A stretch of DNA of 40,371 nt, from positions 1 through 40,371 of the forward strand of contig CAISPG010000031.1 of NCBI GenBank assembly GCA_903887325.1, given 5' to 3'. The notes below the pieces were generated by a model. That model saw nothing but the letters and a program-made list of their open reading frames with translations. It was not told the origin of the DNA and searched no databases. Below are positions 20,026 through 39,878 of this stretch, piece after piece (position 1 is the stretch's first letter; every line of letters begins with the position of its first letter). This DNA comes from an uncultured Burkholderiales bacterium. GTDB taxonomy: Bacteria; Pseudomonadota; Gammaproteobacteria; Burkholderiales; Burkholderiaceae_C. Both the position numbers and the translations under genes were made by a program.

Positions 20026-20730
20026 ATGAATTATGTTTTACAACCGCAAGCCGTCAACGCCTTGCCCGTCGCAGGAAGCGCCTCGTTGTTTCCCGTGCGT
20101 CGCGTGTATTGCGTGGGACGCAATTACGCTGCGCATGCGCGCGAAATGGGCTTTGACCCGGACCGCGAACCGCCGTTCTTTTTCTGCAAACCCGGCGACG
20201 CCCAATCGGTGGTGGCGGTTCCTGCTGATCAAACCATCAGCATTCCCTACCCGCCCTTGACCGCCAACTTTCACTATGAAATCGAGCTGGTGGTGGCCAT
20301 CGGTACCGGCGGTAAAAACATCGCGATTGAACAGGCGGCTTCGCATATTTATGCTTACGCCGTCGGCCTGGATATGACGCGGCGCGACTTGCAGATCAAG
20401 ATGCGCGAACAAGGACGTCCGTGGGAAATCGGCAAAGCCTTTGACTTCAGTGCGCCCGTTGGTTTGCTGCATCCCAAGTCAGCCATTGGTGAATTGCTGA
20501 GCGCAGGTATTGCGCTTGATGTCAACGGTGAAACCTGCCAGAGCAGCAACCTCAGCCATTTGATATGGTCTGTGAATGAAACCATTGCCAATCTGTCGAC
20601 CTTGTTTGAACTGCAAGCCGGCGATTTGATTTTCAGCGGCACACCTGAGGGCGTGGGTGCCGTCAAACCTGGCGACACCATGCACGGGCGGATCGCAGGT
20701 TTGACGCCAATTTCTGTCAAAGTGATTTGA
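20026..20730 (+). CDS. fumarylacetoacetate hydrolase family protein, probable fumarylpyruvate hydrolase
   Basis: A 234-residue metal-dependent hydrolase. VYCVGRNYAAHAREMG (about 27-42) matches the start of the bacterial FAH fold. HYEIELVVAIG supplies Glu85 and Glu87, and GLDMTRRDLQ supplies Asp116 as probable Mg/Mn ligands; GTPEGVGAVKPGD is the family C-terminal signature. Short forms like this include fumarylpyruvate hydrolase of the gentisate pathway, 2-keto-3-deoxy-acid lyases and oxaloacetate tautomerases. The degenerate hydroxylase just upstream (30 bases) resembles 3-hydroxybenzoate hydroxylases that make gentisate, which favours the fumarylpyruvate role. AAAGG lies about 9 bases before the ATG. 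Gentisate dioxygenase and an isomerase are not in the window. Confidence 0.82.
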   Translation: MNYVLQPQAVNALPVAGSASLFPVRRVYCVGRNYAAHAREMGFDPDREPPFFFCKPGDAQSVVAVPADQTISIPYPPLTANFHYEIELVVAIGTGGKNIAIEQAASHIYAYAVGLDMTRRDLQIKMREQGRPWEIGKAFDFSAPVGLLHPKSAIGELLSAGIALDVNGETCQSSNLSHLIWSVNETIANLSTLFELQAGDLIFSGTPEGVGAVKPGDTMHGRIAGLTPISVKVI

Positions 20731-20825
20731 GGCTTGCGGGCTTCCCCGTGGAAGTCAGCTGAATGAAAAGAGAGTTCAGCTATTGGGCAACACAACAAAG
20801 ACCTGGGAATGCAACTCCGCTTAGC

Positions 20826-21044
20826 TTATTGAGTTCGGATAATGCGCCAGCCCCGGTCCATTTTGCGAAACACAAATTTCCAGTCCAGATTGCGCGATTT
20901 ACGAAGATAGTAGGACAAGACCCGCAGGCTTTCGGCTTTTTTCGCGTCTTCGCTGAATATGCTGTCGCCTATCTCCATGGACATTAACGTGGTCACGTTG
21001 TCGTGTGGTTTGATGCGTTTTAATTCAATAGGTTCAACAATCAT
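20826..21044 (-). CDS. 72-residue protein of unknown function, distal to the bigR operon
   Basis: A small soluble protein with mixed charge: an N-terminal acidic/hydrophobic part (DNVTTLMSMEIGDSIFSEDAKK) and a basic aromatic tail (LDWKFVFRKMDRGWRIIR). AAGGGG sits about 8 bases before the ATG at 21044. It begins 35 bases after the SulP permease stop on the same strand, so it may be the last gene of the bigR transcript, though its own promoter is possible. No family was recognised. A weak inverted repeat lies between it and the convergent hydrolase gene. Confidence 0.55.
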   Translation of the reverse strand: MIVEPIELKRIKPHDNVTTLMSMEIGDSIFSEDAKKAESLRVLSYYLRKSRNLDWKFVFRKMDRGWRIIRTQ

Positions 21045-21079
21045 GGCCGCGCCCCTTATCCGGTATCAGCGGTATCGGC

Positions 21080-22786
21080 CTATGTCTGAATTACTTTAAT
21101 CACTTCCGGCGTCAGCACTTGTATCGCCTGGTAATTGGTTAAAAACACCTGGCCGCTCAAGTGCTGCAAAAAGTCGGTGCGATGCAATTTATCCATCACC
21201 GGCCCCTTGACTTCGGACAAATGCAAAGCAATGCCCGCTTCTTTTAAGCGTTGCGCAATCGCTTCCAGGCTTTCCATGGCGCTGGCGTCTATGTCGTTGA
21301 CCGCCGAGCATTGCAGCAGCACGTGTTTCAATTCGGGCCGTGTGGCTACCTCGGCGTTGACCCGGTCTTCAATGCCGCGTGCGTTGGCAAAAAACATGCT
21401 CGCATCCACGCGCAAACACAGCAGACGCGGGCTGACTTGCACATCGTGGCGCAGCACATTGCGAAAGTGCTCGGTGCCCGGCACCAGGCCGACGGTGGCA
21501 ATATGCGGCCGGCTGGCGCGCCATAAAAACAAAGCCAGCGACACCGCCACGCCGGTGACCAAGCCTTGTTCGACGCCGACCAGCAAAGTCGCCAGCAAGG
21601 TGGCGCTGACCGCGATGAAGTCTGGTTTGGAAAACACCCAGGTTTGTTTGAAGATGCTCAAGTCCACCAGCGACAACACCGCCACGATGATGGTGGCAGC
21701 CAGTGTGGCTTGCGGCAGGTAATACAGCGCCGGGGTGAGCAGCAGCGAGGCCAAGGTGATACCGACAGCGGTAAACACGCCGGCAGCAGGCGTCACCGCA
21801 CCGGCGTCGAAATTGACCACCGAGCGGGCAAATCCGCCGGTCACCGGAAACCCTCCGGTGAATGCAGCCGACAGATTGGCCGCGCCCAGCGCCACCAGTT
21901 CCTGATCAGGTTCAATGCGTTGGCGGCGTTTGGCGGCCAGCGTCTGGCCGACCGATACTGATTCGACAAAGCCCACCACACTGATCAACAGCGCGGGCAC
22001 CAGCAGTTCCTGCCACAGTGCCAGATCCCACAGCGGCGCAGTCAAGGGCGGTAAGCCTTGCGGGACGGTGCCGACCAGCTTCATGCCCTGGCCTTGCCAA
22101 TCGAGTTGCCAGGCCAGCACGGTGGTGAGTGCAATCGCAGCCACCGGGCCGGCTTTGGCCGTCATATCAGCGGCGCGCGCTTGCATGCCTAAACTGATCA
22201 ACAGCGGTTTCAGGCCTTTGCGAACCCAAAACAAAAATAAAGTGGCAGCCACACCAACCGCCAGGGTCAACGCATGTGTGTGCGATATTTGCTGCTTCAA
22301 GGCGCTCAGCAGTTCAGCAAAGTTGTGTCCTTCGGCTTTGACACCCATCAATGTTTTCAACTGGCTGGCGGCAATCAGCAAACCTGAAGCTGAGATAAAG
22401 CCGGAGATCACCGGGTGGCTCAGAAAATTCGCCAGAAAACCCAGGCGCAGCAAACCCATGAGCAACAACATACCGCCGGACAAAAACGCCAGCGTCATCG
22501 CGACTTGCCAATAAGCGTGTGTGCCTGCGGCGGCGTGTTCGGCGACAGCGGCTGCCGTCATCAACGACACCACGGCCACGGGCCCTACCGCGAGCACCCT
22601 GCTGCTGCCTAGCAAGGCATACAAAAGCAGCGGTGCCACGCTGGCATACAAACCTACTTCCGGGGGCAAGCCTGCAAGCAACGCATAGGCCAGACTTTGC
22701 GGAATCAGCATGACGGTGACGATGATAGCCGTCGCCATGTCGCTACTAAAACTGGTCTTGCTGTAACTGCGGCCCCACTCCAACAC
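21080..22786 (-). CDS. SulP-family anion permease with C-terminal STAS domain
   Basis: A 568-residue transporter. IVTVMLIPQSLAYALLAGLPPEVGLYAS (about 22-49) is the SulP signature, followed by 10-12 hydrophobic segments and GGFPVTGGFARSVVNF. A cytoplasmic STAS domain occupies about 440-560 and includes LQCSAVNDIDASAMESL. Family members move sulfate, bicarbonate and other anions; sulfate or another sulfur oxyanion is favoured here by the neighbouring sulfur genes. The start is uncertain: GTG at 22786 is the first conventional choice, but family-like residues (DWLPSLP) continue upstream to a CTG at 22837 preceded by AGGA. It lies on the bigR-yeeE strand, downstream of the second YeeE-type gene. 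Confidence 0.88.
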   Translation of the reverse strand: MLEWGRSYSKTSFSSDMATAIIVTVMLIPQSLAYALLAGLPPEVGLYASVAPLLLYALLGSSRVLAVGPVAVVSLMTAAAVAEHAAAGTHAYWQVAMTLAFLSGGMLLLMGLLRLGFLANFLSHPVISGFISASGLLIAASQLKTLMGVKAEGHNFAELLSALKQQISHTHALTLAVGVAATLFLFWVRKGLKPLLISLGMQARAADMTAKAGPVAAIALTTVLAWQLDWQGQGMKLVGTVPQGLPPLTAPLWDLALWQELLVPALLISVVGFVESVSVGQTLAAKRRQRIEPDQELVALGAANLSAAFTGGFPVTGGFARSVVNFDAGAVTPAAGVFTAVGITLASLLLTPALYYLPQATLAATIIVAVLSLVDLSIFKQTWVFSKPDFIAVSATLLATLLVGVEQGLVTGVAVSLALFLWRASRPHIATVGLVPGTEHFRNVLRHDVQVSPRLLCLRVDASMFFANARGIEDRVNAEVATRPELKHVLLQCSAVNDIDASAMESLEAIAQRLKEAGIALHLSEVKGPVMDKLHRTDFLQHLSGQVFLTNYQAIQVLTPEVIKVIQT

Positions 22787-22861
22787 AGGCAGCGAGGGCA
22801 GCCAATCTTTAAGCGAAGAATGCGTTTGATGTTTCAGAAGATATCCTGTGTGACGCCAGCT

Positions 22862-23326
22862 TCAGTGCGGGTTAAGTGCAGCTTTGCGAGGCGAATGTAC
22901 GAAGCGGTCCAACAACTCAAAGCCAACCATGCCGATCAGCATGGCGACCACAAAAATCAAGGCTTTGGGCTGACCTGAGGCCATGGATACCAGCGCCGGG
23001 CCGGGACAAAAACCCGCCAAACCCCAGCCGGCGCCGAACAACACACTGCCGATGATCAGCGGCTTGTCAATTTGGGCGTTAGTGGGTAAGCGCAACATGC
23101 CGCCCAAGAAATTGATGGTGCGTTTTTTCGCCAATGTAAATGCAAAAAAACCAACCGCTATGGCGCCACCCATGACCAAGGCCAAAGACGGATCCCACAG
23201 GCCAAAAAGATCTAGAAAACCGGTGACCTTGCCCGGGTCGGTCATGCCGGAAAGTATGAGTCCCAGGCCGAACAACAGGCCGACCAGAAATTCGCTGACG
23301 CGGTGAAGAATGCTGTTTTTACTCAC
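22862..23326 (-). CDS. YeeE/YedE-type membrane protein, second copy
   Basis: A 154-residue polytopic protein with GLILSGMTDPGKVTGFLDLFGLWDPSLALVMGGA (about 20-53) and GAGWGLAGFCPGPALVSM (about 107-124), typical of the second half of the YeeE/YedE (DUF395) fold. The cysteine in GFCPGPA is in the position implicated in sulfur-compound transfer in thiosulfate importers of this family. It starts at GTG 23326, supported by AAGGAA six bases upstream, and lies 10 bases after the first copy. The two halves probably assemble as a pair for thiosulfate or other sulfur-species transport. Confidence 0.85.
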   Translation of the reverse strand: MSKNSILHRVSEFLVGLLFGLGLILSGMTDPGKVTGFLDLFGLWDPSLALVMGGAIAVGFFAFTLAKKRTINFLGGMLRLPTNAQIDKPLIIGSVLFGAGWGLAGFCPGPALVSMASGQPKALIFVVAMLIGMVGFELLDRFVHSPRKAALNPH

Positions 23327-23336
23327 GGCTGTTTCC

Positions 23337-23774
23337 TTAAATGATGTGACGTAGCAGATAGACCGTGATGAAGCCCGCGCCCATGAAGGACAGCGTGGCC
23401 ACCAACGAACGCGGTGACATGCGCGACAAACCACAAACGCCGTGGCCGCTGGTGCAACCCGAGGAGTAGCGTGTGCCAATGCCCACCAGCAGACCGGCGG
23501 TAACCACCGTCCATTCAGTTGCATCAATTCGCGGTGCAGATGCAAAACCTGCGGGTGCCAGTGCGTTAAACACCAGCGGGGCAGCGAACATGCCGAGCAA
23601 AAAAGCCACCCGCCAAACGCTGTCGCCGGCCTTGGGTGGCAACAAGCCGCCCAGAATGCCGCTGATGCCTAGGATGCGGCCGTTGAGCAGAATAAACATG
23701 GCCGAAGCCACGCCTAAGAGAACGCCGCCGCTGAGCGAGGCCCAGGGGGTGAAATGCAACCAATCGAGATTCAT
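23337..23774 (-). CDS. YeeE/YedE-type membrane protein, first copy
   Basis: A 145-residue inner-membrane protein with four or so hydrophobic segments and the family motif [12 protein letters not shown] at about 104-115, whose cysteines are thought to handle sulfur atoms. It corresponds to the first half of YeeE/YedE proteins. Its ATG overlaps the bigR stop by four bases (ATGA), so it is translated with the regulator; a second YeeE-type gene follows after 10 bases. The bigR-blh-DUF395 grouping is known from sulfide-detoxification operons of Xylella and Agrobacterium. Confidence 0.87.
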
Positions 23775-24100
23775 GCTTTGTCTCCTGTGTCAGGTTCGCA
23801 AAATTGCTGGTACATGACCGTCATCACGGCCATGGCCTGCGGGCTGGCGATCTGGTAGTAGATGTTTTTGCCGTCGCGCCGGGTGGTGACGAGTTCTTCT
23901 TCGCGCAAAACGGTGAGTTGCTGAGACAGGGTGGGCTGCAAGATACCCAGAATTTCTTCGAGTTCGCCGACGCGTTTTTCGCCCAGCGACAACTGGCACA
24001 GCAGCATGAGCCGGTCCGGGTTGGACATGACTTTCATCAGCCGCGAGGCCAGCGCCGCTGAGGCTTTCATTTTTTCAAGGTCAAAGGTGAGGGCTTGCAT
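23771..24100 (-). CDS. bigR: ArsR-family repressor of the BigR/SqrR persulfide-sensing type
   Basis: A 109-residue winged-helix regulator. Helix-turn-helix LGILQPTLSQQLTVLREEELV (about 51-71) and wing RRDGKNIYYQI (about 74-84) are typical of ArsR. It has only two cysteines, Cys35 (LLCQL) and Cys101 (QFCEP), 66 residues apart, the same separation as the reactive pair in BigR and SqrR, which form a disulfide or tetrasulfide with persulfides and leave DNA. The metal-binding motif of arsenic sensors is absent. Neighbours (persulfide dioxygenase, YeeE proteins) support sulfur sensing. It is divergent from the dioxygenase and probably represses both directions through the operator at 24141-24169. 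Confidence 0.88.
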   Translation of the reverse strand: MQALTFDLEKMKASAALASRLMKVMSNPDRLMLLCQLSLGEKRVGELEEILGILQPTLSQQLTVLREEELVTTRRDGKNIYYQIASPQAMAVMTVMYQQFCEPDTGDKA

Positions 24101-24137
24101 GGGGTGAATTCCTGAGCTTTGGGGAAGGGATGTGAAA

Positions 24138-24166
24138 ATTATATTGACAAATAGTTTGTTTGTAAA
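24138..24166 (-). promoter_or_regulatory. sigma70-type promoter of bigR
   Basis: On the minus strand, TTTACA (24166-24161) and a perfect TATAAT (24143-24138) are separated by exactly 17 bases. Transcription would start near 24130, about 30 bases before the bigR ATG. The -10 box abuts the -35 box of the opposing promoter. Confidence 0.7.
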
Positions 24167-24169
24167 TAT
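24141..24169. promoter_or_regulatory. palindromic operator, probable BigR binding site
   Basis: The arms ATATTGACAAA (24141-24151) and TTTGTAAATAT (24159-24169) are inverted repeats matching at 10 of 11 positions around a 7-base centre. Its AT-rich character and location resemble BigR boxes. It overlaps both -35 elements of the divergent promoters, so one bound dimer (or two) would block both. Confidence 0.65.
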
Positions 24170-24172
24170 ATT
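24144..24172 (+). promoter_or_regulatory. sigma70-type promoter of the persulfide dioxygenase operon
   Basis: A consensus -35 TTGACA (24144-24149), a 17-base spacer and -10 TATATT (24167-24172, one mismatch to consensus). Transcription would start near 24180, about 20 bases before the ATG at 24201. It may drive the long run of sulfur genes to soxB. Confidence 0.72.
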
Positions 24173-24200
24173 ATGATAAAACTAATTCAAAAGGATGTCC

Positions 24201-25076
24201 ATGACCACCGCCTCAGTTCAAACCCAAGTCCACGGTATGTTCGACCCGGCCACCTGGACAGTGACCTATGTGGTGTATGAAAAACCGGGCTCCGCCTGCG
24301 CCATCATTGACTCGGTGTTGGACTATGACCCCAAGTCCGGGCGCACCAGCCATGCCAGCGCCGACAAAGCCATTGCCTTTATCAAGTCCAACGATTTGAA
24401 GTTGGAATGGATTCTGGAAACCCATGCCCACGCCGACCATTTGTCTGCTGCGCCTTACCTGAAAGCACAACTCGGCGGCAAAACCGGCATCGGCGACCAC
24501 ATCACTGGCGTGCAAAAGGTGTTCAAAGGCATCTTCAACATGGAGAGCAGTTTCAAGCTCGACGGCTCGCAGTTCGACCATTTGTTCGCTGACGGCGAAA
24601 CCATTCACATCGGCAATATCAGCGGCCACACCCTGTTTGTACCGGGCCACACACCTGCTTGCGTGGCGTATCAGTTCGTTGATGCGGTGTTCGTGGGTGA
24701 CACCATGTTCATGCCGGATGTGGGTACGGCGCGCTGCGATTTTCCCGGCGGCAACGCCAAGACCTTGTATGCCTCGACCCGCAAGATTTTGAGCTTGCCA
24801 TCTGCTACCCGTTTGTTCATGTGCCACGATTACCCGCCGAACGACAGGCCGGTGGTGTTTGAAACCACGGTAGCCGAGCAACGCGCCAAAAACATACATG
24901 TGCATGACGGCATCAGCGAAGCCCAGTTTGTGGAGATGCGCACCCAGCGTGACGCCACCTTGGAAATGCCGGTGCTCATCCTGCCGGCGGTGCAAATCAA
25001 TATCCGTGCGGGAGAGCTGCCGCCCAAGGAAGACAATGGCATTTCCTACGCCAAGATTCCTTTGAATGCGCTTTGA
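24201..25076 (+). CDS. blh: persulfide dioxygenase, ETHE1/Blh-type metallo-hydrolase
   Basis: A 291-residue metallo-beta-lactamase-fold protein. THAHADHLSA (about 75-84) gives the HxHxDH metal motif, GHTPACVAYQ the third-site histidine region and VGTARCDFPGG the substrate-side loop characteristic of ETHE1-like persulfide dioxygenases. These non-haem iron enzymes oxidise glutathione persulfide to sulfite in the cytoplasm. No fused rhodanese is present. The ATG at 24201 has AAAGGA five bases upstream; the ATG at 24195 overlaps that site and is less likely. First gene after the BigR-controlled promoter; the thioredoxin gene starts 20 bases after its stop. The sulfite formed could leave the cell or be oxidised by SoxCD. 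Confidence 0.9.
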   Translation: MTTASVQTQVHGMFDPATWTVTYVVYEKPGSACAIIDSVLDYDPKSGRTSHASADKAIAFIKSNDLKLEWILETHAHADHLSAAPYLKAQLGGKTGIGDHITGVQKVFKGIFNMESSFKLDGSQFDHLFADGETIHIGNISGHTLFVPGHTPACVAYQFVDAVFVGDTMFMPDVGTARCDFPGGNAKTLYASTRKILSLPSATRLFMCHDYPPNDRPVVFETTVAEQRAKNIHVHDGISEAQFVEMRTQRDATLEMPVLILPAVQINIRAGELPPKEDNGISYAKIPLNAL

Positions 25077-25096
25077 AATTCAAGGAGGATAGAAAC

Positions 25097-25558
25097 ATGA
25101 ACGACAAAATGCATTTGGTTTGTCCCCATTGCAACGCCACCAACCGCGTGCCGTTTGACAAACTGAAAGCCGAATTGAACTGCGGTCAATGCCATGCACC
25201 CTTGCTTAGCTCGCATCCCGACAATTTGGGTGAAGTGTCTTTCAACGCGCAGTTGACCAAAAGTGATTTGCCGATGGTGGTGGATTTCTGGGCACCTTGG
25301 TGCGGCCCCTGCCGCATGATGGCGCCGGCTTATGAAAAGGTCAGCCAAGACATGCATGGACGTGCTCGTTTCGTCAAAGTCAACACTGAAGACGAACAAG
25401 GCTTGGCGAGCAAATACAACATTCGAAGCATTCCGACTTTGGCGGTTTTTGCGGGTGGCCGTGAAATTGCCAGACAACCTGGGGCGATGTCGGCCCCCGA
25501 TTTGGCGCGTTGGGTCAGCGCTGCGTTGCTGAAAGAGACAAACCATGGACGCTCTTGA
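25097..25558 (+). CDS. trxC: zinc-finger thioredoxin (TrxC / thioredoxin 2 type)
   Basis: A 153-residue thioredoxin with an N-terminal zinc ribbon, CPHC (about 9-12) and CGQC (about 29-32), and the active site WAPWCGPC at about 66-73; cis-Pro is in RSIPTLAVF. This is the layout of thioredoxin 2, an oxidative-stress reductase. An AGGAGG site 7 bases before the ATG at 25097 fixes the start. It overlaps the cydA start by 14 bases, so the two are translationally coupled. Embedded between a persulfide dioxygenase and sulfur-oxidation genes, it could reduce protein persulfides or polysulfides (inference). Confidence 0.88.
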   Translation: MNDKMHLVCPHCNATNRVPFDKLKAELNCGQCHAPLLSSHPDNLGEVSFNAQLTKSDLPMVVDFWAPWCGPCRMMAPAYEKVSQDMHGRARFVKVNTEDEQGLASKYNIRSIPTLAVFAGGREIARQPGAMSAPDLARWVSAALLKETNHGRS

Positions 25559-26891
25559 TCCCGTCGTACTGGCGCGTTTGCAGTTCGCTGCTAACGTTAC
25601 TTTCCATATTTTGTTTCCCACCATCAGCATTGCCATGGGCTGGTTTTTGTTGTTTTTCAAAACCCGCTTTGTGGCGACTGGAGAAAAGCATTGGATGGAC
25701 GCCTACCAGTTCTGGATCAAGATTTTTGCCCTGACTTTCGCCTTGGGCGTGGTCAGCGGCATCACCATGAGTTTTCAGTTTGGCACCAATTGGCCTGGAT
25801 TTATGAACACCGTCGGCAATGTGGCCGGGCCGTTGTTGGCTTACGAGGTGTTGACTGCTTTCTTTTTGGAAGCTACTTTTCTTGGCATCATGCTGTTCGG
25901 TCGTGGTCGCGTCAGCGAAGGCGTGCATACCTTGGCCACTTGGTTGGTGGCTTTGGGCACAACCGCTTCAGCGTTTTGGATACTTGCGCTCAACTCGTGG
26001 ATGCACACACCGGCGGGCTTTGAGATGATCAATGGGCAAGCCCATGTAACCAGTTGGTTCGAGGTCATCTTCAACCCGTCTTTCCCCTACCGCATGACGC
26101 ACATGTTGTTGGCCTCAGGTCTGACGGGTTCGTTTTTGTTGGCGGGTATCAGCGCCTATCGGTGGCTCAAAGGGGACCGCGCCAAAGACGTGATGGCCTC
26201 GCTGCGCACCGGCATCACGGTGGCTGCGGTGTTGATTCCAGTTCAAATTTTTGTGGGAGATATGCATGGTCTGAACACCTTGCATTACCAACCTGCCAAG
26301 CTGGCAGCGATGGAAGGCATTTGGGAAACCCAAACCGGTGTACCTGCGGTCTTGTTTGCTATCCCTGACCAAGCCACGCAGTCCAATAAATATGAAATTG
26401 CTATTCCCAAATTGGCGTCTTTTTACCTGACCCATGACTGGAACGGCGAGGTCAAGGGCATCAAGGATTTTGCTGAGCATCCCCCTGTGGGTCCTGTGTT
26501 TTGGGCGTTTCGCATCATGGTCGGGGTGGGTTTGCTGATGCTCGTCGTCAGCTGGTTCGCCAGTTACGAATTGACATTCAAAAACACTTTGTCAAAGCGA
26601 ACTGCCATGGTGTTGGTGGCCATGACCTTTGCCGGATGGGTGGCGCTGGTATCGGGTTGGTATGTGACAGAGATTGGCCGCCAACCATGGCTGGTGTATG
26701 GCTTGTTGACGACAGCTCAAGCGGCCTCTCAAGTGCCCGCAGGCAATATTGCGCTGTCCTTGGCTATGTACCTGACGCTGTATGCAGCCTTGCTCTCGGC
26801 CTATGTGTCTGTGGTGTTTTATCTGGCTAAAAAAGCGGTTGACGTCGGTGTTGACACGCCATTACAAGCACAGGGACTGAGTCATGTCTGA
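25545..26891 (+). CDS. cydA: cytochrome bd oxidase subunit I, cyanide-insensitive type
   Basis: A 448-residue haem protein with about nine membrane helices. His21 (TFHILFP) and His186 (YRMTHML) are candidate haem ligands, and Glu101/Glu109 (LAYEVLTAFFLEA) correspond to the conserved proton-path glutamates. GWYVTEIGRQPW is the family motif near the quinol site. The loop after the sixth helix is short (GDMHGLNTLHYQ...), as in the CIO branch, rather than the long Q loop of E. coli CydA. It oxidises ubiquinol and reduces O2. Bd oxidases resist sulfide inhibition, which fits the location. Its start overlaps trxC by 14 bases and its end overlaps cydB by 8. Confidence 0.93.
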   Translation: MDALDPVVLARLQFAANVTFHILFPTISIAMGWFLLFFKTRFVATGEKHWMDAYQFWIKIFALTFALGVVSGITMSFQFGTNWPGFMNTVGNVAGPLLAYEVLTAFFLEATFLGIMLFGRGRVSEGVHTLATWLVALGTTASAFWILALNSWMHTPAGFEMINGQAHVTSWFEVIFNPSFPYRMTHMLLASGLTGSFLLAGISAYRWLKGDRAKDVMASLRTGITVAAVLIPVQIFVGDMHGLNTLHYQPAKLAAMEGIWETQTGVPAVLFAIPDQATQSNKYEIAIPKLASFYLTHDWNGEVKGIKDFAEHPPVGPVFWAFRIMVGVGLLMLVVSWFASYELTFKNTLSKRTAMVLVAMTFAGWVALVSGWYVTEIGRQPWLVYGLLTTAQAASQVPAGNIALSLAMYLTLYAALLSAYVSVVFYLAKKAVDVGVDTPLQAQGLSHV

Positions 26892-27918
26892 ATTCGGTAT
26901 TGATTTGATGAGTCCTGCGGGCTGGCTGCCTTTGGTGTTTGCCTTGGTCATGGCGCTGTCCATGTTGGCCTACGTCATTTTGGATGGCTACGACTTGGGC
27001 GTGGGCGTGTTGCTTGACAGCGCCGACACGGTAGAGCAGAAGAACACCATGATCGCCAGCATTGGCCCGTTTTGGGACGCCAATGAAACCTGGTTGGTGT
27101 TGGGTGTGGGTGTGCTTTTGGTGGGTTTCCCGATGGCGCACGGTGTCATTCTGGGTGCCTTGTATTTGCCGGTAGCACTGATGCTGGTGGCGCTGTCTTT
27201 GCGTGGCGTTGCTTTCGACTTTCGTGTCAAAGCCAAATCACACCACCGACCCTTGTGGGACAAAACCTTTTACATCGGTTCAGTGTTGGCTTCATGGTCG
27301 CAAGGCTTCATGCTCGGGCAACTCATCACCGGCTTCAAGCAGGAAACCCCGGGATATTTGTTCAGTGCATTGATCGGATTTTGTTTGCTGTTTGCCTACC
27401 GATTACTGGGTGCGGGTTGGTTGATCATGAAAACCGAAGGAGCGCTTCAACTGCGTGCGGTCATGTGGGCCAAAGGCAGTTTGTGGTTGACTGCTGCAGG
27501 TGTGTTGGCTATTTCAGTGGCCACGCCTTGGGTCAGCCCGCGTATTTTCGACAAGTGGTTCAGCTTTCCCAACGTGCTGATGTTGTTGCCCATCCCAGTC
27601 ATGACCTTGGCCTTGTTCGTCATCATTCGGCGCAGCTTGTCCAGATTGCCCACGCGCTTTGCGAGCGGCAACCAATTCGGTGCAGGCGTGCCGTTTGCCT
27701 GCACCGTCGGCGTGTTTCTGCTGTCTTTTTACGGACTGGCCTACAGCTTGTTTCCCTGGCTGGTGATTGACCGAATCAACATTTGGCAAGCGGCCAGCGC
27801 GCCTGAAGCCTTGTTGGTGATTTTTTATGGCGTGGTGGTGGTCTTGCCCGTGATCATCGGCTACACGGTGTTTGCCTATCGTGTGTTTTGGGGCAAGTCC
27901 ACGCAGCTTCATTATTGA
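26884..27918 (+). CDS. cydB: cytochrome bd oxidase subunit II
   Basis: A 344-residue membrane protein with about eight helices. AYVILDGYDLGVGVLL (about 22-37) and IGPFWDANETWLVLGVGVLLVGFPMAHG (about 60-87) are CydB signatures. It forms the oxidase with CydA. It begins inside the end of cydA (8-base overlap). No small cydX-like gene follows; the next gene, soxC, starts after 61 bases. I see no convincing promoter in that gap, so transcription may continue into the sox genes. Confidence 0.93.
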   Translation: MSEFGIDLMSPAGWLPLVFALVMALSMLAYVILDGYDLGVGVLLDSADTVEQKNTMIASIGPFWDANETWLVLGVGVLLVGFPMAHGVILGALYLPVALMLVALSLRGVAFDFRVKAKSHHRPLWDKTFYIGSVLASWSQGFMLGQLITGFKQETPGYLFSALIGFCLLFAYRLLGAGWLIMKTEGALQLRAVMWAKGSLWLTAAGVLAISVATPWVSPRIFDKWFSFPNVLMLLPIPVMTLALFVIIRRSLSRLPTRFASGNQFGAGVPFACTVGVFLLSFYGLAYSLFPWLVIDRINIWQAASAPEALLVIFYGVVVVLPVIIGYTVFAYRVFWGKSTQLHY

Positions 27919-27979
27919 AGTTGAAAGATACAGATGGCGTATTAAGGCATATTTCAAATCACTTTGCAGGGGAACCGAT

Positions 27980-29326
27980 ATGAGTGAAGAACCGGGATTC
28001 ATTGTCAAAGCACCTGAGCATTTCTTGAGTACCTCAGACCTGCAAAGTCTGCACGCCAGCAACAGCAGCGGGCGGCGCGATTTTCTGGCCCGTGCGTTTG
28101 CGGCGGCAGCGGCTGTCGGCACCAGCGCAGTTGCGTACGCACAAACCAAGCAGGCAGAGGGCGAACTGGAGATATTGAACCTGCCAGCGCACACCACTGG
28201 TCTTGGTCAAGGCGTGGCTACCAAGCCTTATGGCCAGCCTTCGCAGTTTGAAGCCAATGTGCAGCGTCGCCAAAGCCCGGGCTTGACGCAAACCACGCAA
28301 GCCTCGGTGTCGTTCGCGCCTTTGCAATCGCTGTTCGGCATCGTCACGCCCAGCGGTTTGCATTTCGAGCGGCATCACCAGGGCTGGTGGGACATAGACC
28401 CGACCAAACACCGTTTCATGGTCAACGGCCTGGTCAAAACCCCGCGCGTATTCACCATGGACGACTTGATGCGGCTGCCGTCTGTCTCGCGTTTTCATTT
28501 CATCGAATGCGGCGCCAACACCGGCATGGAATGGGGCAACGTGGCTGTGCCCACGGTGCAATACACGCACGGCATGTTGTCTTGCAGCGAGTTCACCGGC
28601 GTGCCCTTGATACATGTGTTGAACCAGTGCGGTGTCGATTTGAAAACCGCGCAGTTTGTGCTGGCCGAAGGCGGCGACGGTTCCTCCTTGACGCGCACCA
28701 TTCCCATGTCGCTGGTCTCCTCAGGCGAAGTGCTGCTGGCCTACGGTCAAAACGGCGAAATGCTGCGCCCCGAAAACGGTTACCCGCTGCGACTGGTGGT
28801 GCCCGGTGTGCAAGGGGTCTCTTGGGTCAAATACCTCAGACGCATCAAAGTCGGAGACAAGCCTTGGGCCACCAAAGACGAAGCCGTGCATTACATGGAC
28901 TTGATGCCCGACGGCCAGCACCGCCAGTACAGCAGCATTCAGGAATGCAAATCGGTGGTCACCACGCCCTCAGGCGGGCAATTGTTGCAAGGCAAAGGTT
29001 TTTACAACATCACCGGGCTGGCGTGGTCTGGCAAAGGCGCGATCAAAAAAGTAGATGTGTCGGTGGACGGCGGCATCAACTGGAAACCGGCTCGCATGGA
29101 AACACCGGTGATGCGCAAATGCCTGACGCGTTTCAACATGGATTGGGTATGGGATGGCAAGGCTTGCATCATCCAAAGCCGAGCCAGCGACGACACAGGC
29201 TATGTGCAACCGTCCATGGTCCAACTGCGCGCGGTGCGCGGTACGCGCTCCATTTATCACAACAACGCCATTCAATCCTGGCTGGTGCAAGAAAGCGGAG
29301 AGGTGAAAAATGTGCAAACCACGTAA
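27980..29326 (+). CDS. soxC: sulfur/sulfite dehydrogenase molybdopterin subunit SoxC
   Basis: A 448-residue Tat-exported molybdoenzyme. The signal contains GRRDFLARAFAAAAA (RR at 32-33). The sulfite-oxidase fold follows, with the molybdenum-ligating cysteine in FIECGANTGMEW (Cys177) and a C-terminal dimerisation domain (VSVDGGINWKPA). SoxC with SoxD oxidises the sulfane sulfur carried by SoxY, giving six additional electrons in the Sox cycle. The ATG at 27980 follows AGGGGAAC; a longer reading frame starting at 27872 would overlap cydB. It overlaps soxD by 17 bases. Confidence 0.93.
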   Translation: MSEEPGFIVKAPEHFLSTSDLQSLHASNSSGRRDFLARAFAAAAAVGTSAVAYAQTKQAEGELEILNLPAHTTGLGQGVATKPYGQPSQFEANVQRRQSPGLTQTTQASVSFAPLQSLFGIVTPSGLHFERHHQGWWDIDPTKHRFMVNGLVKTPRVFTMDDLMRLPSVSRFHFIECGANTGMEWGNVAVPTVQYTHGMLSCSEFTGVPLIHVLNQCGVDLKTAQFVLAEGGDGSSLTRTIPMSLVSSGEVLLAYGQNGEMLRPENGYPLRLVVPGVQGVSWVKYLRRIKVGDKPWATKDEAVHYMDLMPDGQHRQYSSIQECKSVVTTPSGGQLLQGKGFYNITGLAWSGKGAIKKVDVSVDGGINWKPARMETPVMRKCLTRFNMDWVWDGKACIIQSRASDDTGYVQPSMVQLRAVRGTRSIYHNNAIQSWLVQESGEVKNVQTT

Positions 29327-30107
29327 ATATTTGCTTGCCGCGCTGTGTGGCTTGTTGTCGTTGTCGGCGCTGGCAGACACGGTTTTGTACCCCGGTGTAG
29401 GCCGTAACGCGACTGCGGCTGAAGTGGCGAAGTGGGACATCGATGTGCGCCCCGATTTTGCAGGCCTACCCAAAGGCCAGGGCACGGTAGCGCAAGGTCA
29501 GATCGTTTGGGAGGCCAAATGCGCCGCTTGCCATGGCGTGTTCGGTGAGTCCAACCAAACTTATAACCCGATCAGCGGCGGCGTGCAAGCGCAAGACGTG
29601 GTCAGCGGACATGTGGCCAATTTGCAGGACAAGGCTTACCCGGCGCGCGCCACCTTGATGAAACTCGCCACGGTGTCCACGCTGTGGGATTACATCAACC
29701 GCGCCATGCCTTGGTACGCGCCCAAGAGCCTGAGCACCAACGAGGTTTACGCGGTGACCGCCTTTGTGCTGCACTTGGATGGCATCGTTGCAGATGATTT
29801 TGTGTTGAACGAAAAAACCATCACACAAGTGCAGCAGCGCATGCCTAACCGCGACGGCATGAACACGCGCCACCACTTGTGGCCGGGCAATGAATTCGGC
29901 GGATTGGCAGCACCCGATGTGTCCAGCGTGGCCTGCATGTCTGCGTGCAAAACCGAAGTCAGCATCACGTCCTCTTTGCCTGAACACGCGCGTGACGCAC
30001 ACGGCAATCTCGCAGATCAAAACCGCCTCGTCGGCCAGCAAAAAGGCGTGAACACCTTGCGCAAAGATAAAGCTCCTCGCGCTTGTACAAAAGCAGAGAA
30101 CTGCTGA
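29310..30107 (+). CDS. soxD: c-type cytochrome subunit SoxD, single-haem form
   Basis: A 265-residue exported cytochrome with a Sec signal (about 5-22) and one haem site, CAACH at 71-75; AMPWYAP supplies a likely methionine ligand near 134. The characteristic SoxD region with NTRHHLWPGNEFGG and LPEHARDAHGNLADQNRLVG follows. Well-studied SoxD proteins have a second C-terminal cytochrome domain of about 100 residues; here the protein ends 20 residues after NRLVG with an odd Lys/Cys-rich tail, so that domain is absent. It passes electrons from SoxC to the respiratory chain. It starts inside soxC and is followed by soxY after 66 bases. Confidence 0.88.
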   Translation: MCKPRKYLLAALCGLLSLSALADTVLYPGVGRNATAAEVAKWDIDVRPDFAGLPKGQGTVAQGQIVWEAKCAACHGVFGESNQTYNPISGGVQAQDVVSGHVANLQDKAYPARATLMKLATVSTLWDYINRAMPWYAPKSLSTNEVYAVTAFVLHLDGIVADDFVLNEKTITQVQQRMPNRDGMNTRHHLWPGNEFGGLAAPDVSSVACMSACKTEVSITSSLPEHARDAHGNLADQNRLVGQQKGVNTLRKDKAPRACTKAENC

Positions 30108-30173
30108 CATGACCTACCATTGCCCGCTGGCTTGCCACGTGTGTCAAACTCTGAAATCGAAAGGAAATACTGT

Positions 30174-30629
30174 ATGCAAACACGACGTGAAGTATTAAAG
30201 CGCAGTGGCATGGTCGCCGCCCTGTTGCTCGGGGCAGGATTGTTGCCGGGCGCAGCGCTGGCCTATCAAAAAAATGCGTTTGAAGCCAAGAGCATGGAGG
30301 ACGCGTTCAAAGCCCTGGGTCTGCCCATGCCGGTGGAAAGCGCCGATGTCACGCTGACCGCGCCTGATATTGCCGAAAACGGTGCGGTGGTGCCTATGAC
30401 CATGGCCAGCAGTCTGAGCGGTGTAAAAAAAATGCTGTTGCTGGTTGAAAAAAATCCTTCGCCTTTGATTGCCCAGTTCATGGTCAATCCTGCGGTGGAT
30501 ATCCAATACCAGACGCGTGCCAAGATGGGCGAATCCTGCGACGTGTACGCCGTGGCGGTGATGGAAAACGGCAAAACTTTGTTCGCCCGAAAAGAAGTCA
30601 AGGTCACGCTCGGCGGTTGCGGCGGTTAA
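30174..30629 (+). CDS. soxY: sulfur-carrier protein SoxY
   Basis: A 151-residue Tat-exported protein (TRREVLKRSG at 3-12) ending in GGCGG, the swinging arm whose cysteine (Cys149) covalently carries thiosulfate and sulfane intermediates. The core is an immunoglobulin-like fold (VTLTAPDIAENGAVVP). It forms a heterodimer with SoxZ in the periplasm. GAAAGGA upstream supports the ATG at 30174; an upstream GTG-type extension would interrupt the Tat signal. soxZ starts 20 bases after its stop. Confidence 0.95.
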   Translation: MQTRREVLKRSGMVAALLLGAGLLPGAALAYQKNAFEAKSMEDAFKALGLPMPVESADVTLTAPDIAENGAVVPMTMASSLSGVKKMLLLVEKNPSPLIAQFMVNPAVDIQYQTRAKMGESCDVYAVAVMENGKTLFARKEVKVTLGGCGG

Positions 30630-30649
30630 TTCAATCAAGGAGAAAAAAT

Positions 30650-30961
30650 ATGCCAGATCCGATGCGCATACGCGCACAAGCAGCAGGTTCGAAAATCAAT
30701 GTGCGGGTGTTGATGAGCCATGAGATGGAGTCAGGCCAGCGCAAAGACGTCAACGGCGCGCCTATTCCCGCTTGGCACATACAAGAGGTCAGCGCTAGCC
30801 ACAACGGCGCTGAGGTATTGAGCGCCGAATGGGGCCCGGGTGTATCCAAAAACCCGTACCTGCAATTCACTGTCAAAAACGGCAAAGCGGGTGACAAAAT
30901 CACTGTCACTTGGAAAGACAACAAAGGCGAAAGCCGTACCGACGAGGCCACGGTGAGTTGA
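30650..30961 (+). CDS. soxZ: thiosulfate-oxidation scaffold protein SoxZ
   Basis: A 103-residue beta-sandwich protein (MRIRAQAAGSKINVRVLMSHEMESG, then HIQEVSASHNGAEVL and KAGDKITVTWKDNKGE). It lacks a signal peptide, as is usual: it is exported by piggy-backing on the Tat substrate SoxY. AAGGAGA lies seven to eight bases before the ATG at 30650. soxA begins one base after its stop, implying coupling. Confidence 0.95.
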   Translation: MPDPMRIRAQAAGSKINVRVLMSHEMESGQRKDVNGAPIPAWHIQEVSASHNGAEVLSAEWGPGVSKNPYLQFTVKNGKAGDKITVTWKDNKGESRTDEATVS

Positions 30962-30962
30962 T

Positions 30963-31772
30963 ATGGGCGTTTATGCATTTCCGCGCATGGCTTTATTGAT
31001 GCTCGCAGTGTGGGCCAGTGCGCCGTCTTTGGCACAAAAAACCGCCAGCGACAGCATCGCTGAGTACCGCGCCATGTTGCAAGACGGTAACCCCGCCGAT
31101 TTGTACGAGGCCAAAGGCGAAGACTTGTGGAAGCAATTGCGCGGGCCGAACAAAGTCTCGCTGGAGAATTGTGATCTTGGCAAAGGCCCGGGCGTGGTCA
31201 ACGGCGCCTGGGTAGAGATGCCTCGCTACTTTGCCGACACACAACAGGTGCAAGACTTGGAATCGCGTTTGCTGACCTGCATGGAAACACTGCAAGGTTT
31301 TGACGCGCAAACCATACGCAACACGCCCTATGGCAAAGGTGAGCAGGCCAACATCACTGCCTTGGCCACCTGGGTGGCGTCGCTTTCCAAAGGCATGGCA
31401 TTCAAACTGCCGCAAGCGCACGCTGAAGAAAAACGTTTGTTCGAATTGGGTCGGCAATTGTTTTATTACCGCGCCGGCAGCCACGATTTTTCCTGTGCCA
31501 CTTGCCACGGCCAGGACAACAAGCGCATACGTTTACAAGACTTGCCCAATCTCACTACCAACGCCGGTGCCGGGCTGGGCTTTGGGGCCTGGCCGGCCTA
31601 CCGCGTGTCCAACGGGCAAATGTGGGGCATGCAATTGCGCTTGAACGATTGCTACCGGCAGCAACGTTTTCCATACGCGCAGTTCGGCACCGAGGCAGGT
31701 ATTGCGCTGTCGGTGTTCATGGGTGTGACCGCCCAAGGCGTAGAAACCACTGCGCCTTCCATACGACGCTGA
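30963..31772 (+). CDS. soxA: SoxA, haem/persulfide subunit of the SoxAX enzyme
   Basis: A 269-residue periplasmic cytochrome with a Sec signal (about 9-24). The C-terminal domain has haem motif CATCH (178-182) and the catalytic cysteine Cys230 (NDCYRQQRFP), which becomes a persulfide haem ligand. In the N-terminal domain Cys70 and Cys106 replace a haem with a likely disulfide, giving the mono-haem SoxA type. With SoxX it couples thiosulfate to SoxY Cys149. soxX starts 17 bases downstream. Confidence 0.95.
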   Translation: MGVYAFPRMALLMLAVWASAPSLAQKTASDSIAEYRAMLQDGNPADLYEAKGEDLWKQLRGPNKVSLENCDLGKGPGVVNGAWVEMPRYFADTQQVQDLESRLLTCMETLQGFDAQTIRNTPYGKGEQANITALATWVASLSKGMAFKLPQAHAEEKRLFELGRQLFYYRAGSHDFSCATCHGQDNKRIRLQDLPNLTTNAGAGLGFGAWPAYRVSNGQMWGMQLRLNDCYRQQRFPYAQFGTEAGIALSVFMGVTAQGVETTAPSIRR

Positions 31773-31789
31773 GCGCACACGGACAAAAC

Positions 31790-32443
31790 ATGAAGAAAAC
31801 AACTGTCTCCTTGAAGATCTTTTGCGTCATTAGCTTGGCCTGCATGGCGTCAAGCGGCGCATCACTGGCACAGCAAGTTGATGCGGCATTGCAAAAAACC
31901 TTGAGCGCATCTTTTCGCGCTGAGGGTCAGGCCGGTATGGACCGCTTGTTGCAAGACGAGGCCAACCGCTTGTGCAGCCAAGCCGATGCCAGCGGCAAAA
32001 CTGTCAGCGACGAAGACGCAGAACGCATACGCCAAAGTAGTTTCAAAGCGATTGCCTGGCCGACTGACGGACAGTTTTTTGGCGATTTCAAACTCGGTGA
32101 AAAATTAGCGCAGGACGGGCGCGGCAAAACCTGGTCGGACAAACCCGGCTCTGAGAACGGCGGCAATTGCTACAACTGCCACCAGATCAGCAAAAGCGAA
32201 ATCGCTTACGGCACGCTAGGCCCCAGTTTGTACAACTACGGCAAATTGCGCGGTGTCAGCGATGTGAACATCGCCACGGCCAAACCCATCATCGACTACA
32301 CCTGGGGCAAGCTGTGGAACCCGCGCGCTTACAACGCCTGCTCGAGCATGCCGCGCTTTGGTCACAACAGCATATTGACGCAGGCGCAACTCAAGCACTT
32401 GATGTCATTGCTGCTGGATCCGCAATCGCCGGTCAACCAGTGA
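31790..32443 (+). CDS. soxX: SoxX, cytochrome subunit of the SoxAX enzyme
   Basis: A 217-residue exported cytochrome. A signal peptide occupies about 7-27; the haem site is CYNCH at 127-131 and the axial methionine is Met187 in SSMPRFG. It is longer than compact SoxX proteins because of a helical insert before the haem (about 30-110: QTLSASF..., LLQDEANRLCSQADASGK), also known from other betaproteobacteria. It receives electrons from SoxA. The ATG at 31790 follows the soxA stop by 17 bases; a longer frame beginning at 31502 lies within soxA and is not coding. Confidence 0.93.
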   Translation: MKKTTVSLKIFCVISLACMASSGASLAQQVDAALQKTLSASFRAEGQAGMDRLLQDEANRLCSQADASGKTVSDEDAERIRQSSFKAIAWPTDGQFFGDFKLGEKLAQDGRGKTWSDKPGSENGGNCYNCHQISKSEIAYGTLGPSLYNYGKLRGVSDVNIATAKPIIDYTWGKLWNPRAYNACSSMPRFGHNSILTQAQLKHLMSLLLDPQSPVNQ

Positions 32444-32453
32444 ATGTTGTGAC

Positions 32454-34181
32454 ATGAATTTATCCAAACGCGAGTTCATGCAGGTGCTGGGTGCCGGTGT
32501 CATGGCGGGTTTGCCCATGGGCAGTTATGCGCAAACACATGCAGGCGACGCCGAAGGTTTGTACGACATGCCGCGTTTCGGTCAGGTGTCTTTTTTGCAC
32601 ATGACAGATTGCCACGCGCAGTTGCTGCCCGTGCATTTCCGCGAGCCGCACATGAACCTGGGCTTGGGCAAGGCCAACGGTCAATTGCCGCACTTGGTGG
32701 GCGAACATTTGCTTCGGGCCACTGGCGTGCAAGCCGATACCGCGCTGGCGCATGCGCTGACCAGTCTGAATTTTGAAACTGCGGCGCAGCGTTATGGCAA
32801 GGTTGGTGGTTTTGCGCACCTGGCCACGCTGGTCAAACGCATGCGCAGTGCGCGTCCCGGTGCTTTGCTGCTGGATGGCGGCGACACCTGGCAGGGTTCG
32901 GCGACAGCCTTATGGACACGCGGCCAGGACATGGTCGACGCTTGCAGACTGCTGGGTGTGGATGTGATGACCGGGCATTTTGAATTCACCTATGGACAGA
33001 ACCGGGTGAACGAGCTGGTCGAACAATTGCAAAACAGTGGCACGGCATTCGTCGCGCAGAACATCAAAACGCGCGACTTCGGCGACCCGGTGTTCAAGCC
33101 CTATGTGATGTACGAGATGAATGGCGTGCCTTGCGCAGTCATCGGTCAGGCGTTTCCGTACACGCCGATTGCCAACCCGCGCTACATGGTCGCGGATTGG
33201 GAGTTCGGCATACAAGAAGACAACTTGCAAAAAACTATTCAAGATGCCCGGGCTCAAGGCGCTCAAGTGGTGGTGCTGTTGTCGCACAACGGCATGGACG
33301 TGGATTTGAAACTGGCCTCGCGTGTCAGTGGATTGGACGCCATCCTCGGCGGTCATACGCACGACGGCATGCCGGTGGCCAAAGTGGTTGCCAATAAATC
33401 CGGTCAGACGCTGGTCACCAACGCCGGTTCCAACGGCAAGTTTTTAGGCGTGCTGGATCTGCAAGTGAAAAACAAACAGGTCACCGATTACCGCTACAAG
33501 CTGATGCCGGTGTTTGCCAACCTGTTACCAGCCGACGCGCCCATGCAAGCCTTGATAGACCGTATTCGTGCGCCTTACCTGGACAAGCTGCAAACCACGT
33601 TGGCCTTCACTGATGGCGGCTTGAACCGAAGAGGTAATTTCAATGGCACAGGGGATCAATTGCTGCTGGATGCCATGTTGGATGTGCAGTCAGCTGAGAT
33701 TGCTTTTTCACCGGGTTTTAGATGGGGCACCACGCTGTTGCCCGGTCAGGCAATCACCCGTGAATGGTTGATGGACATGACGGCGACCACTTATTCCTAT
33801 GCCACCGTCACGTCTATGCGCGGCAGCATGATCAAAACCATACTCGAAGACGTGGCCGACAACTTGTTCAACCTTGATCCTTATTACCAGCAGGGCGGTG
33901 ACATGGTGAGGGTAGGCGGTTTGAGTTACAGCTGCAGCCCGCTGGCTGCCATGGGTCAGCGCATTCTGCGCATGGAGCTCAAAGGTAAACCCATAGACCC
34001 GGACAAGGTTTACAAGGTAGCAGGTTGGGCACCCGTATCAGAAGAAGCAAGCCAACAAAAGCTGCCGCCTATTTGGGACGTGGTTGAACAATGGTTGGGC
34101 GCGCAAGGGGGCAGGGTGACAACGCGCTCGCCGAATATTCCCAAGTTAGACGGCGTATTGCCTAACCAGGGATTCATCTGA
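32454..34181 (+). CDS. soxB: thiosulfohydrolase SoxB
   Basis: A 575-residue dimanganese hydrolase of the 5'-nucleotidase family. HMTDCHAQ (about 49-56), LLDGGDTWQGS (about 139-149), LSHNGMD and GGHTHDG give the metal-site residues. The N-terminus KREFMQVLGAGVMAGLP is a single-Arg variant of a Tat-type signal, a small oddity; export may still occur through Tat. SoxB releases sulfate from SoxY-bound thiosulfate. It starts 10 bases after soxX and ends the run, converging with the RND pump gene after 7 bases with no clear terminator. Confidence 0.95.
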   Translation: MNLSKREFMQVLGAGVMAGLPMGSYAQTHAGDAEGLYDMPRFGQVSFLHMTDCHAQLLPVHFREPHMNLGLGKANGQLPHLVGEHLLRATGVQADTALAHALTSLNFETAAQRYGKVGGFAHLATLVKRMRSARPGALLLDGGDTWQGSATALWTRGQDMVDACRLLGVDVMTGHFEFTYGQNRVNELVEQLQNSGTAFVAQNIKTRDFGDPVFKPYVMYEMNGVPCAVIGQAFPYTPIANPRYMVADWEFGIQEDNLQKTIQDARAQGAQVVVLLSHNGMDVDLKLASRVSGLDAILGGHTHDGMPVAKVVANKSGQTLVTNAGSNGKFLGVLDLQVKNKQVTDYRYKLMPVFANLLPADAPMQALIDRIRAPYLDKLQTTLAFTDGGLNRRGNFNGTGDQLLLDAMLDVQSAEIAFSPGFRWGTTLLPGQAITREWLMDMTATTYSYATVTSMRGSMIKTILEDVADNLFNLDPYYQQGGDMVRVGGLSYSCSPLAAMGQRILRMELKGKPIDPDKVYKVAGWAPVSEEASQQKLPPIWDVVEQWLGAQGGRVTTRSPNIPKLDGVLPNQGFI

Positions 34182-34188
34182 GTTCAGC

Positions 34189-37308: not shown

Positions 37309-37314
37309 GTGCGG

Positions 37315-38358: not shown

Positions 38359-38375
38359 AATACATTCCCCGCGCT

Positions 38376-39749: not shown

Positions 39750-39878
39750 GGCAGGCTGAGCGGAGCTGGGTACAAACGGGCGCTGGCAGTTAAAACAGCT
39801 TGCATCATAAGGAACTGGGTGTTGCGGGTTTTCAAGTGGCAGAACGCCGTTCAAACCGAGCGAATTTCAGAATGGATA

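Follow-up and report, generated by a model that had tools for sequence, protein, structure and literature searches.

Background

BigR operons combine an ArsR repressor carrying a cysteine pair with a dioxygenase gene and adjoining YeeE-type transporters, as described for Xylella and Agrobacterium (bigR-blh) and for Acinetobacter baumannii (yeeE-yedE-pdo2) (PMC5823870, PMC7315123). The BigR of Xylella and Agrobacterium reportedly covers the -10 region and is released by polysulfide (PMC5823870). In A. baumannii, BigR controls yeeE-yedE-pdo2 and cydAB is sulfide-induced, and sulfide-resistant cytochrome bd activity has been reported from other bacteria (PMC7315123). The sox genes of Hyphomicrobium denitrificans and Pseudaminobacter are controlled by SoxR; in the former, SoxR is a repressor that responds to sulfane sulfur and falls in the same ArsR subfamily (PMC10451225, PMC12423496). 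A SoxR-like gene also occurs near sox in Comamonadaceae. Sox, as a source of energy, and BigR/SqrR, as a defence, are usually treated as separate systems. Here we describe a contig of 40,371 nucleotides from an uncultured Burkholderiales bacterium, hereafter the window, on which a BigR-type repressor gene, a persulfide dioxygenase gene (pdo), trxC, the cytochrome bd genes cydAB and a complete sox core (soxCDYZAXB) stand side by side.

The window resembles each of these systems in part. It shares the repressor, dioxygenase and YeeE-type transporters of the BigR operons; unlike them, its dioxygenase arm extends over trxC, cydAB and the entire sox core, its dioxygenase lacks the sulfur-transferase domain of Blh, and its cydAB is not apart from the operon, as it is listed for A. 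baumannii (PMC7315123). It shares enzymes and the ArsR subfamily with SoxR-controlled sox clusters, but the source genome has no SoxR-grade gene and soxC of the window has no sox leader. The closest solved relative of the window repressor is SqrR of Rhodobacter capsulatus, called a master regulator in the title of the work cited for it; SqrR controls sulfide-dependent photosynthesis there, whereas the neighbours in the window are pdo, cyd and sox. Two Comamonadaceae loci (L009:5267-16618 and L032:5396-16600) also place bigR-yeeE-yeeE-sulP upstream of soxC on one strand. Unlike the window, they are joined via the sulP end, carry a SoxR-like gene behind soxB, lack cydAB and have a longer region upstream of soxC. 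A further locus, L007, has yeeE-sulP-soxC at its contig start. In the open-access literature, judged by titles, the openings of abstracts and selected passages, we came across no description of sox and cydAB linked to a BigR-type repressor; subscription papers and preprints lay outside the search. The parts are known and the combination is a variant, of note since earlier layouts seem to survive in relatives.

Layout and putative control of the locus

We consider it likely, from the arrangement of genes and signals, that a complete Sox core has been brought under a BigR-type promoter responding to reactive-sulfur stress, with a putative single transcript from pdo to soxB. The window is contig C31 of a genome (G000) of 2.47 Mb in 142 contigs, 99.96% complete. 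A first-pass annotation had placed a BigR module, trxC-cydAB and soxCDYZAXB back to back, and every gene that it named is present with an open reading frame. Its maximum gap of 66 bases and its several overlaps also hold. The gaps measure 20 bases between pdo and trxC (trxC start at 25097), 61 between cydB and soxC, 66 between soxD and soxY, 20 between soxY and soxZ, 1 between soxZ and soxA, 17 between soxA and soxX (soxX start at 31790) and 10 between soxX and soxB, and overlaps of 14, 8 and 17 bases are found at trxC/cydA, cydA/cydB and soxC/soxD, respectively. The layout is confirmed with small corrections: eleven plus-strand genes, not ten, run from pdo to soxB, and the proposed BigR/blh/YeeE/SulP operon has its genes in place, with bigR, both yeeE genes and sulP on the minus strand, divergent from pdo.

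The gene first labelled blh is a plain persulfide dioxygenase gene. The match of its product to the Blh model, which is 423 positions long, is limited to positions 138-423 and scores 393 bits against a cut-off of 625, and Pfam gives Lactamase_B alone, with no DUF442-type sulfur-transferase domain; since only the dioxygenase half of the model is matched, the sulfur-transferase half is lacking. The Sox core is complete, comprising SoxXA, SoxYZ, SoxB and SoxCD. SoxX, A, Y, Z, B and C exceed their NCBIfam cut-offs, and SoxD was assigned by its Pfam cytochrome domain, its position and its homologues in related sox loci. Both subunits of cytochrome bd, CydA (PF01654) and CydB (PF02322), are present. 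As had been stated, none of soxR, soxV, soxW or SQR lies in the window.

Among PDB entries the repressor matches SqrR and BigR best, and its C35 and C101 line up with their sensing cysteines; the protein thus has the two cysteines, 66 residues apart at aligned positions, that mark the BigR/SqrR/SoxR group. Against the NCBIfam BigR equivalog NF040642 it reaches 100.2 bits, under the cut-off of 155. The earlier identification as BigR therefore holds for the structural matches and both cysteines and fails at the cut-off, which makes "BigR-type" the safe name.

A sigma-70-like scan, in which a promoter-like site matches the consensus at 9 of 12 positions or better, found 4 such sites in 20700-34600, against 6.8 in shuffles. 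The top two, at 11/12 each, form a divergent overlapping pair in the bigR/pdo spacer (TTGACA-17-TATATT at 24144 on the plus strand and TTTACA-17-TATAAT at 24166 on the minus strand). No promoter-like site follows on the plus strand from 24172 to the soxB stop, the next being at 34263, past soxB. Terminator-like sites numbered 27 in 20700-34600, against 20.8 in shuffles, and those on the plus strand within 24195-34181 all fall inside genes, with none in any intergenic gap. A separate strong promoter or a terminator between cydB and soxC had been named as one finding that would speak against a single regulon, and the scans detected neither signal there. One BigR-type promoter is therefore the best reading of the proposed single regulon with a sulfur sensor, with co-transcription as a prediction from these signals.

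A candidate operator, an inverted repeat, overlaps both promoters. A long inverted repeat was present in all 20 aligned bigR/pdo spacers (chosen sequences, the window among them); of its 34 positions, 22-32 are symmetric, the window having 26. In a genome-wide search with the operator core pattern, the window site was alone within 2 mismatches. Allowing up to 3 mismatches gave 23 rows, and the 21 other rows all had 3. With 15 rows in the reversed control and no credible second site, further regulon members in this genome were rejected. Likewise rejected was a hidden BigR operator before soxC or soxY: the operator matrix gave -13.3 for the cydB-soxC region and -24.1 for the soxD-soxY region of the window and at best -0.1 in the leaders of six joined relatives, while its 20 training sites, window included, scored 42.7-57.8.

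Joined and unjoined relatives

Our SoxC scan recovered at least 587 relatives, the best 80 of which were mapped as loci, many of them cut by contig ends. Within these 80, cydB lies upstream of soxC in two (L004 and L005), and pdo is present in seven, where pdo/bigR genes lie near sox in arrangements other than that of the window. The description of the two systems as normally separate is thus correct in part only. L005 and L189, titled as a Rickettsia typhi metagenome bin, are the same 3752-base contig as that of genus member G061, and the title seems wrong. In the SoxC tree, another genus member (G011) shares an identical SoxC with Limnohabitans sp. B9-3, and the genus is probably Limnohabitans or a near split of it, judging by sequence.

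Gene order was compared across the genus (84 genomes, source genome included), as the first-pass annotation had proposed, and the joint was found again. The sox cluster is joined to the pdo-cyd operon in 7 of the 84 genomes, at eight loci: the window, G105, G103 (contig of L004), G008 (two loci), G061 (L005), G068 and G080. Such recurrence argues that the joint is not due to chance. The whole run from bigR to soxB lies on a single contig in G103, in the window and at each of the two G008 loci. For G105 and G080 it is divided between two contigs that end inside cydB, and the contigs of G061 and G068 start within that gene. CydB was found in 20 of the 84 genomes. Among the 13 unjoined ones, 11 have no sox behind cydB within contig reach (1.3 to 13.5 kb); in G016 the contig ends inside cydB, and a weak match in G077 was left unmapped. 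In the wider family, CydB was matched in 36 of 399 genomes, and none of the 29 loci mapped besides our own (1.5 kb flanks; 6 matches left unmapped) has soxC or pdo.

The joined loci show two layouts. Six of them, in five genomes, have the order cydB, rhodanese gene, MBL-fold gene, AT-rich leader of about 100 bases and soxC; in most of these six, pdo is moreover separated from trxC or cydA by a methyltransferase gene. In the window and G105 the rhodanese gene, the MBL-fold gene and the leader are all gone, and soxC begins 61 bases behind cydB. G105 retains a YgaP-like membrane gene between trxC and cydA (L207:3571-3783), which the window lacks. Without rhodanese, MBL-fold, methyltransferase and YgaP-like genes, the window is the most stripped version seen, and the intact leader and two extra genes of the relatives indicate that its layout is the derived state.

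Several peculiarities of these relatives were recorded. A fuller operon, pdo-methyltransferase-trxC-cydA-cydB-rhodanese, is seen in L103:5128-9870 and L102:1668-7368, the latter also with the MBL-fold gene; the methyltransferase weakly matches TehB/TPMT-like families and could act on sulfide or thiols. G008, a bin 72% complete with 5% contamination, holds two differing copies of the whole joined module (L102 and L108), whose soxC, soxD and soxA show mosaic divergence. The soxD of G105 (L198:2402-2937) matches as two pieces with the middle missing, through a deletion or an assembly fault.

The cydB-soxC spacer and the SoxR-like repressor

The 61-base spacer of the window resembles the decayed 5' end of the rhodanese gene that sits behind cydB in relatives. 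Local alignments to the rhodanese start scored 16-22 for 10/10 relatives, values reached by none of 2000 shuffles for eight relatives and by 1 of 2000 for the other two. Meanwhile, the last 105 bases before soxC were compared with 19 unjoined sox leaders of the genus, using mean local scores and 200 dinucleotide shuffles. The AT-rich leader of the six joined loci is similar to these leaders. None of the 200 shuffles scored as high for G103 and both G008 loci (G008a, G008b), nor for G080, while 1/200 did for G061 and 12/200 for G068. The window (94/200) and G105 (75/200) showed no similarity to the 19 leaders beyond that of shuffles. A CTAGGG palindrome, found in 6/6 joined leaders, occurs in a minority of unjoined leaders and was dropped as a conserved sox signal.

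A second ArsR gene, whose product has two cysteines and 34-45% identity to the window repressor, accompanies the unjoined sox clusters. An 85-residue query of this SoxR-like protein from L019 was searched in 20 chosen genomes and gave matches at E 1e-42 or better in nine. Such SoxR-grade matches occurred in 7/7 unjoined soxC-bearing genomes tested, 5-12 kb from soxC, and in 0/7 joined genomes tested. The other two positive genomes (G093 and G100) were not searched for soxC; no match was found in G006, G022 and G029, which have no strong soxC, nor in G092, which was not searched for it. In the source genome, which has no SoxR-grade gene, the best match of the query is the BigR-type gene itself, at 36%. 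With both the sox leader and the SoxR-like repressor missing, sox probably relies on the BigR-type promoter. Upstream of many unjoined soxC genes, at a distance of about 45-70 bases, lies an AT-rich inverted repeat of the form TATATTAG...TTGATATATA that is a candidate binding site for SoxR; it appears among the L038-L139 leaders, for example in L126, L121 and L130.

History of the joint and alternative explanations

The SoxC tree (65 rows: the 8 joined loci, all 22 unjoined genus loci with strong matches and 35 other loci) groups the eight joined rows in one clade (100/99), in which the window and G105 are paired (100/100). In the CydB tree (37 rows), joined and unjoined rows are intermixed, requiring 5 changes, at least 3 of them forced. 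Together, the trees suggest that the joining probably happened once for the joined sox lineage and was followed by losses or transfers. Between the window and G105, ratios of nonsynonymous to synonymous divergence (dN/dS) over eight genes were 0.045-0.131 (soxC 0.06, soxD 0.13, soxY 0.10), low values indicating that the genes are kept.

Several observations weigh against the proposed takeover by the BigR-type promoter. The scar scores of 16-17 are not above the best score (17) of 3000 random 97-mers from L199, which 4 of the 10 relatives exceed. Scored as promoters, the AT-rich stretches ahead of soxC in the six joined loci with a leader obtain 8.5-9, which 4-21% of random in-operon segments reach, and the last 120 bases before soxC in the window obtain 8, reached by 33%; since real leaders score poorly in the sigma-70 scan, a true sox promoter may escape it. 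The SoxR search was limited to 20 genomes, completeness is 58-96% for six of the seven joined ones, and because the eight joined sox loci form one clade, the correlation with SoxR counts as one evolutionary event, not seven. Divergence also differs along the locus. For soxC, dN between the window and the six joined loci with a leader is 0.142-0.158, against 0.011-0.051 among those six (eight pairs measured); for cydB the ranges are 0.022-0.075 and 0.012-0.066. The sox part of the window thus appears older or faster than the cyd part, which makes replacement of a segment as possible as deletion, and a simple deletion as the whole history is doubted.

The alternative that best withstands these data is that sox has its own promoter, invisible to the scan because it depends on another sigma factor or on an activator site in the end of cydB, so that the joint gives at most readthrough. 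A promoter can hide in this way, for the six joined loci have leaders that clearly serve sox and still score poorly as sigma-70 promoters, and the genus has already tolerated a pdo-cyd operon followed by a separately led sox cluster. We nevertheless regard this alternative as unlikely, as the spacer of the window and G105 shows no detectable similarity to any of the 19 leaders and is explained by the rhodanese scar, and the SoxR-like gene that would read the old leader was not found. Far less probable is that gene order drifted in the genus and produced the joint as a transient side effect that means nothing for regulation. Its patchy occurrence, the intermixed CydB tree and the presence of pdo/bigR near sox in other layouts would fit drift. 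Against it stand the recurrence of the joint at eight loci (seven genomes), the open reading frame of every sox gene in the window and dN/dS values no higher than 0.13. Although the window comes from a draft in 142 contigs and the relatives are mostly metagenome bins, an assembly artefact is hardly credible, given that G105, a separate genome whose soxC is 95% identical, shows this cydB-spacer-soxC junction within a single contig (L198) and that three further loci (G103 and two in G008) run from bigR to soxB on one contig.

For control from the BigR-type promoter, we postulate a history of stepwise regulatory capture, in which Sox, a lithotrophic energy pathway, moved from its own sulfane-sulfur repressor to a persulfide-stress repressor within one genus, a scenario for and against which our confidence is evenly divided. 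In a first step, sox would have landed behind a pdo-methyltransferase-trxC-YgaP-cydAB-rhodanese-MBL operon, keeping its leader and losing the SoxR-like gene. In a second step, in the window lineage, the extra genes and the leader would have vanished, fusing detoxification, sulfide-tolerant respiration and thiosulfate oxidation in one stress-driven operon. The earlier layout, with its own leader and extra genes, and the fused layout both seem to survive among living relatives, so that rewiring onto a stress sensor is testable from a few genomes and two promoters. A sox cluster without soxR, moreover, need not be an unregulated one.

Proposed working and sulfur physiology

Electrons from Sox normally enter at cytochrome c, while cytochrome bd takes quinol. 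The source genome has one cytochrome bd and one heme-copper oxidase, of the CtaD type. Because of the entry at cytochrome c, cytochrome bd is unlikely to serve Sox directly, and the idea that the quinol oxidase shares the electron path of Sox is not supported. It is more likely that cytochrome bd keeps respiration going while the CtaD-type oxidase is inhibited by sulfide.

Under the BigR-type control that we favour, the reduced repressor would sit on the inverted repeat between bigR and pdo and block both divergent promoters. Intracellular sulfide, polysulfide or sulfane sulfur derived from thiosulfate would then link C35 and C101 via sulfur and release the repressor. The minus arm would supply the YeeE-type and SulP transporters, whose direction of transport is presumed. 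The plus arm, as one long message, would supply the dioxygenase and thioredoxin to remove cytoplasmic persulfide and cytochrome bd to respire under sulfide. The same message would supply Sox, which would oxidise thiosulfate and sulfane sulfur in the periplasm to sulfate and deliver electrons to cytochrome c and the aa3 oxidase. The regulon had been proposed to sense reactive sulfur rather than thiosulfate, a contrast that disappears because SoxR of H. denitrificans itself senses sulfane sulfur (PMC10451225, PMC12423496). A swap from SoxR to a BigR-type repressor would thus alter the wiring, and perhaps the threshold, and not the class of signal.

Elsewhere in the source genome, we found the flavin subunit of a flavocytochrome c sulfide dehydrogenase (C106:31590-32882; L273:5591-6883), with no cytochrome domain in the nine neighbouring frames scanned. 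One DsbD-like protein is the sole DsbD_TM match, and there is no separate CcdA. None of the 23 Pyr_redox_2 frames compared with NCBIfam exceeded the SQR cut-off, the one weak match being the flavocytochrome c sulfide dehydrogenase. Five of these frames received no NCBIfam name at the thresholds applied, E 1e-15 for one of them and E 1e-60 for the other four, which makes the absence of SQR from this genome likely rather than proven.

Coordinates and neighbouring genes

Features of the BigR-type and sox locus, in positions of the window
Feature	Position	Strand	Evidence and remarks
sulP, SulP-family anion permease with STAS domain	21080..22786	-	PF00916 336 bits, PF01740; TIGR00815 above cut-off
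YeeE/DUF6691-type transporter piece	22862..23545	-	PF20398 196 bits; frame overlaps neighbour, true start probably within frame
YeeE-type (Sulf_transp) transporter piece	23337..23774	-	PF04143 31 bits; weak TsuA match
bigR-type ArsR repressor, 109 aa	23771..24100	-	HTH_5; C35 and C101, 66 residues apart
Inverted-repeat candidate operator	about 24139..24175		overlaps two divergent sigma-70-like promoters
pdo, ETHE1-type persulfide dioxygenase without sulfur-transferase domain	24195..25076	+	PF00753; dioxygenase half of NF040641
trxC, thioredoxin with N-terminal zinc ribbon	25097..25558	+	NF008229 TrxC above cut-off; PF21352
cydA, cytochrome bd subunit I, 448 aa	25545..26891	+	PF01654 539 bits; sole match in genome
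cydB, cytochrome bd subunit II	26884..27918	+	PF02322 265 bits
cydB-soxC spacer, 61 bases	27919..27979	+	resembles decayed rhodanese 5' end; no operator, no terminator, no sox-leader similarity
soxC, sulfane dehydrogenase molybdopterin subunit	27980..29326	+	TIGR04555 600 bits, cut-off 420
soxD, c-type cytochrome subunit	29310..30107	+	PF13442, PF00034; position behind soxC; homologues in related sox loci
soxY, carrier protein, C-terminal end GGCGG	30174..30629	+	TIGR04488 above cut-off
soxZ	30650..30961	+	TIGR04490 above cut-off
soxA	30963..31772	+	TIGR04484 above cut-off
soxX, start codon picked by eye	31790..32443	+	TIGR04485 above cut-off, scanned as longer frame 31502-32443
soxB, last of the plus-strand run	32454..34181	+	TIGR04486 818 bits
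RND efflux gene, convergent with soxB	34189-37308	-	PF00873

Behind soxB, the minus strand carries an RND efflux system of the CusA/CzcA-like group (34189-39854). Contig C132 of the source genome (L229, L238) encodes a BchP-type geranylgeranyl reductase and the 1-hydroxycarotenoid desaturase CrtD, which suggests aerobic anoxygenic phototrophy in the source organism.

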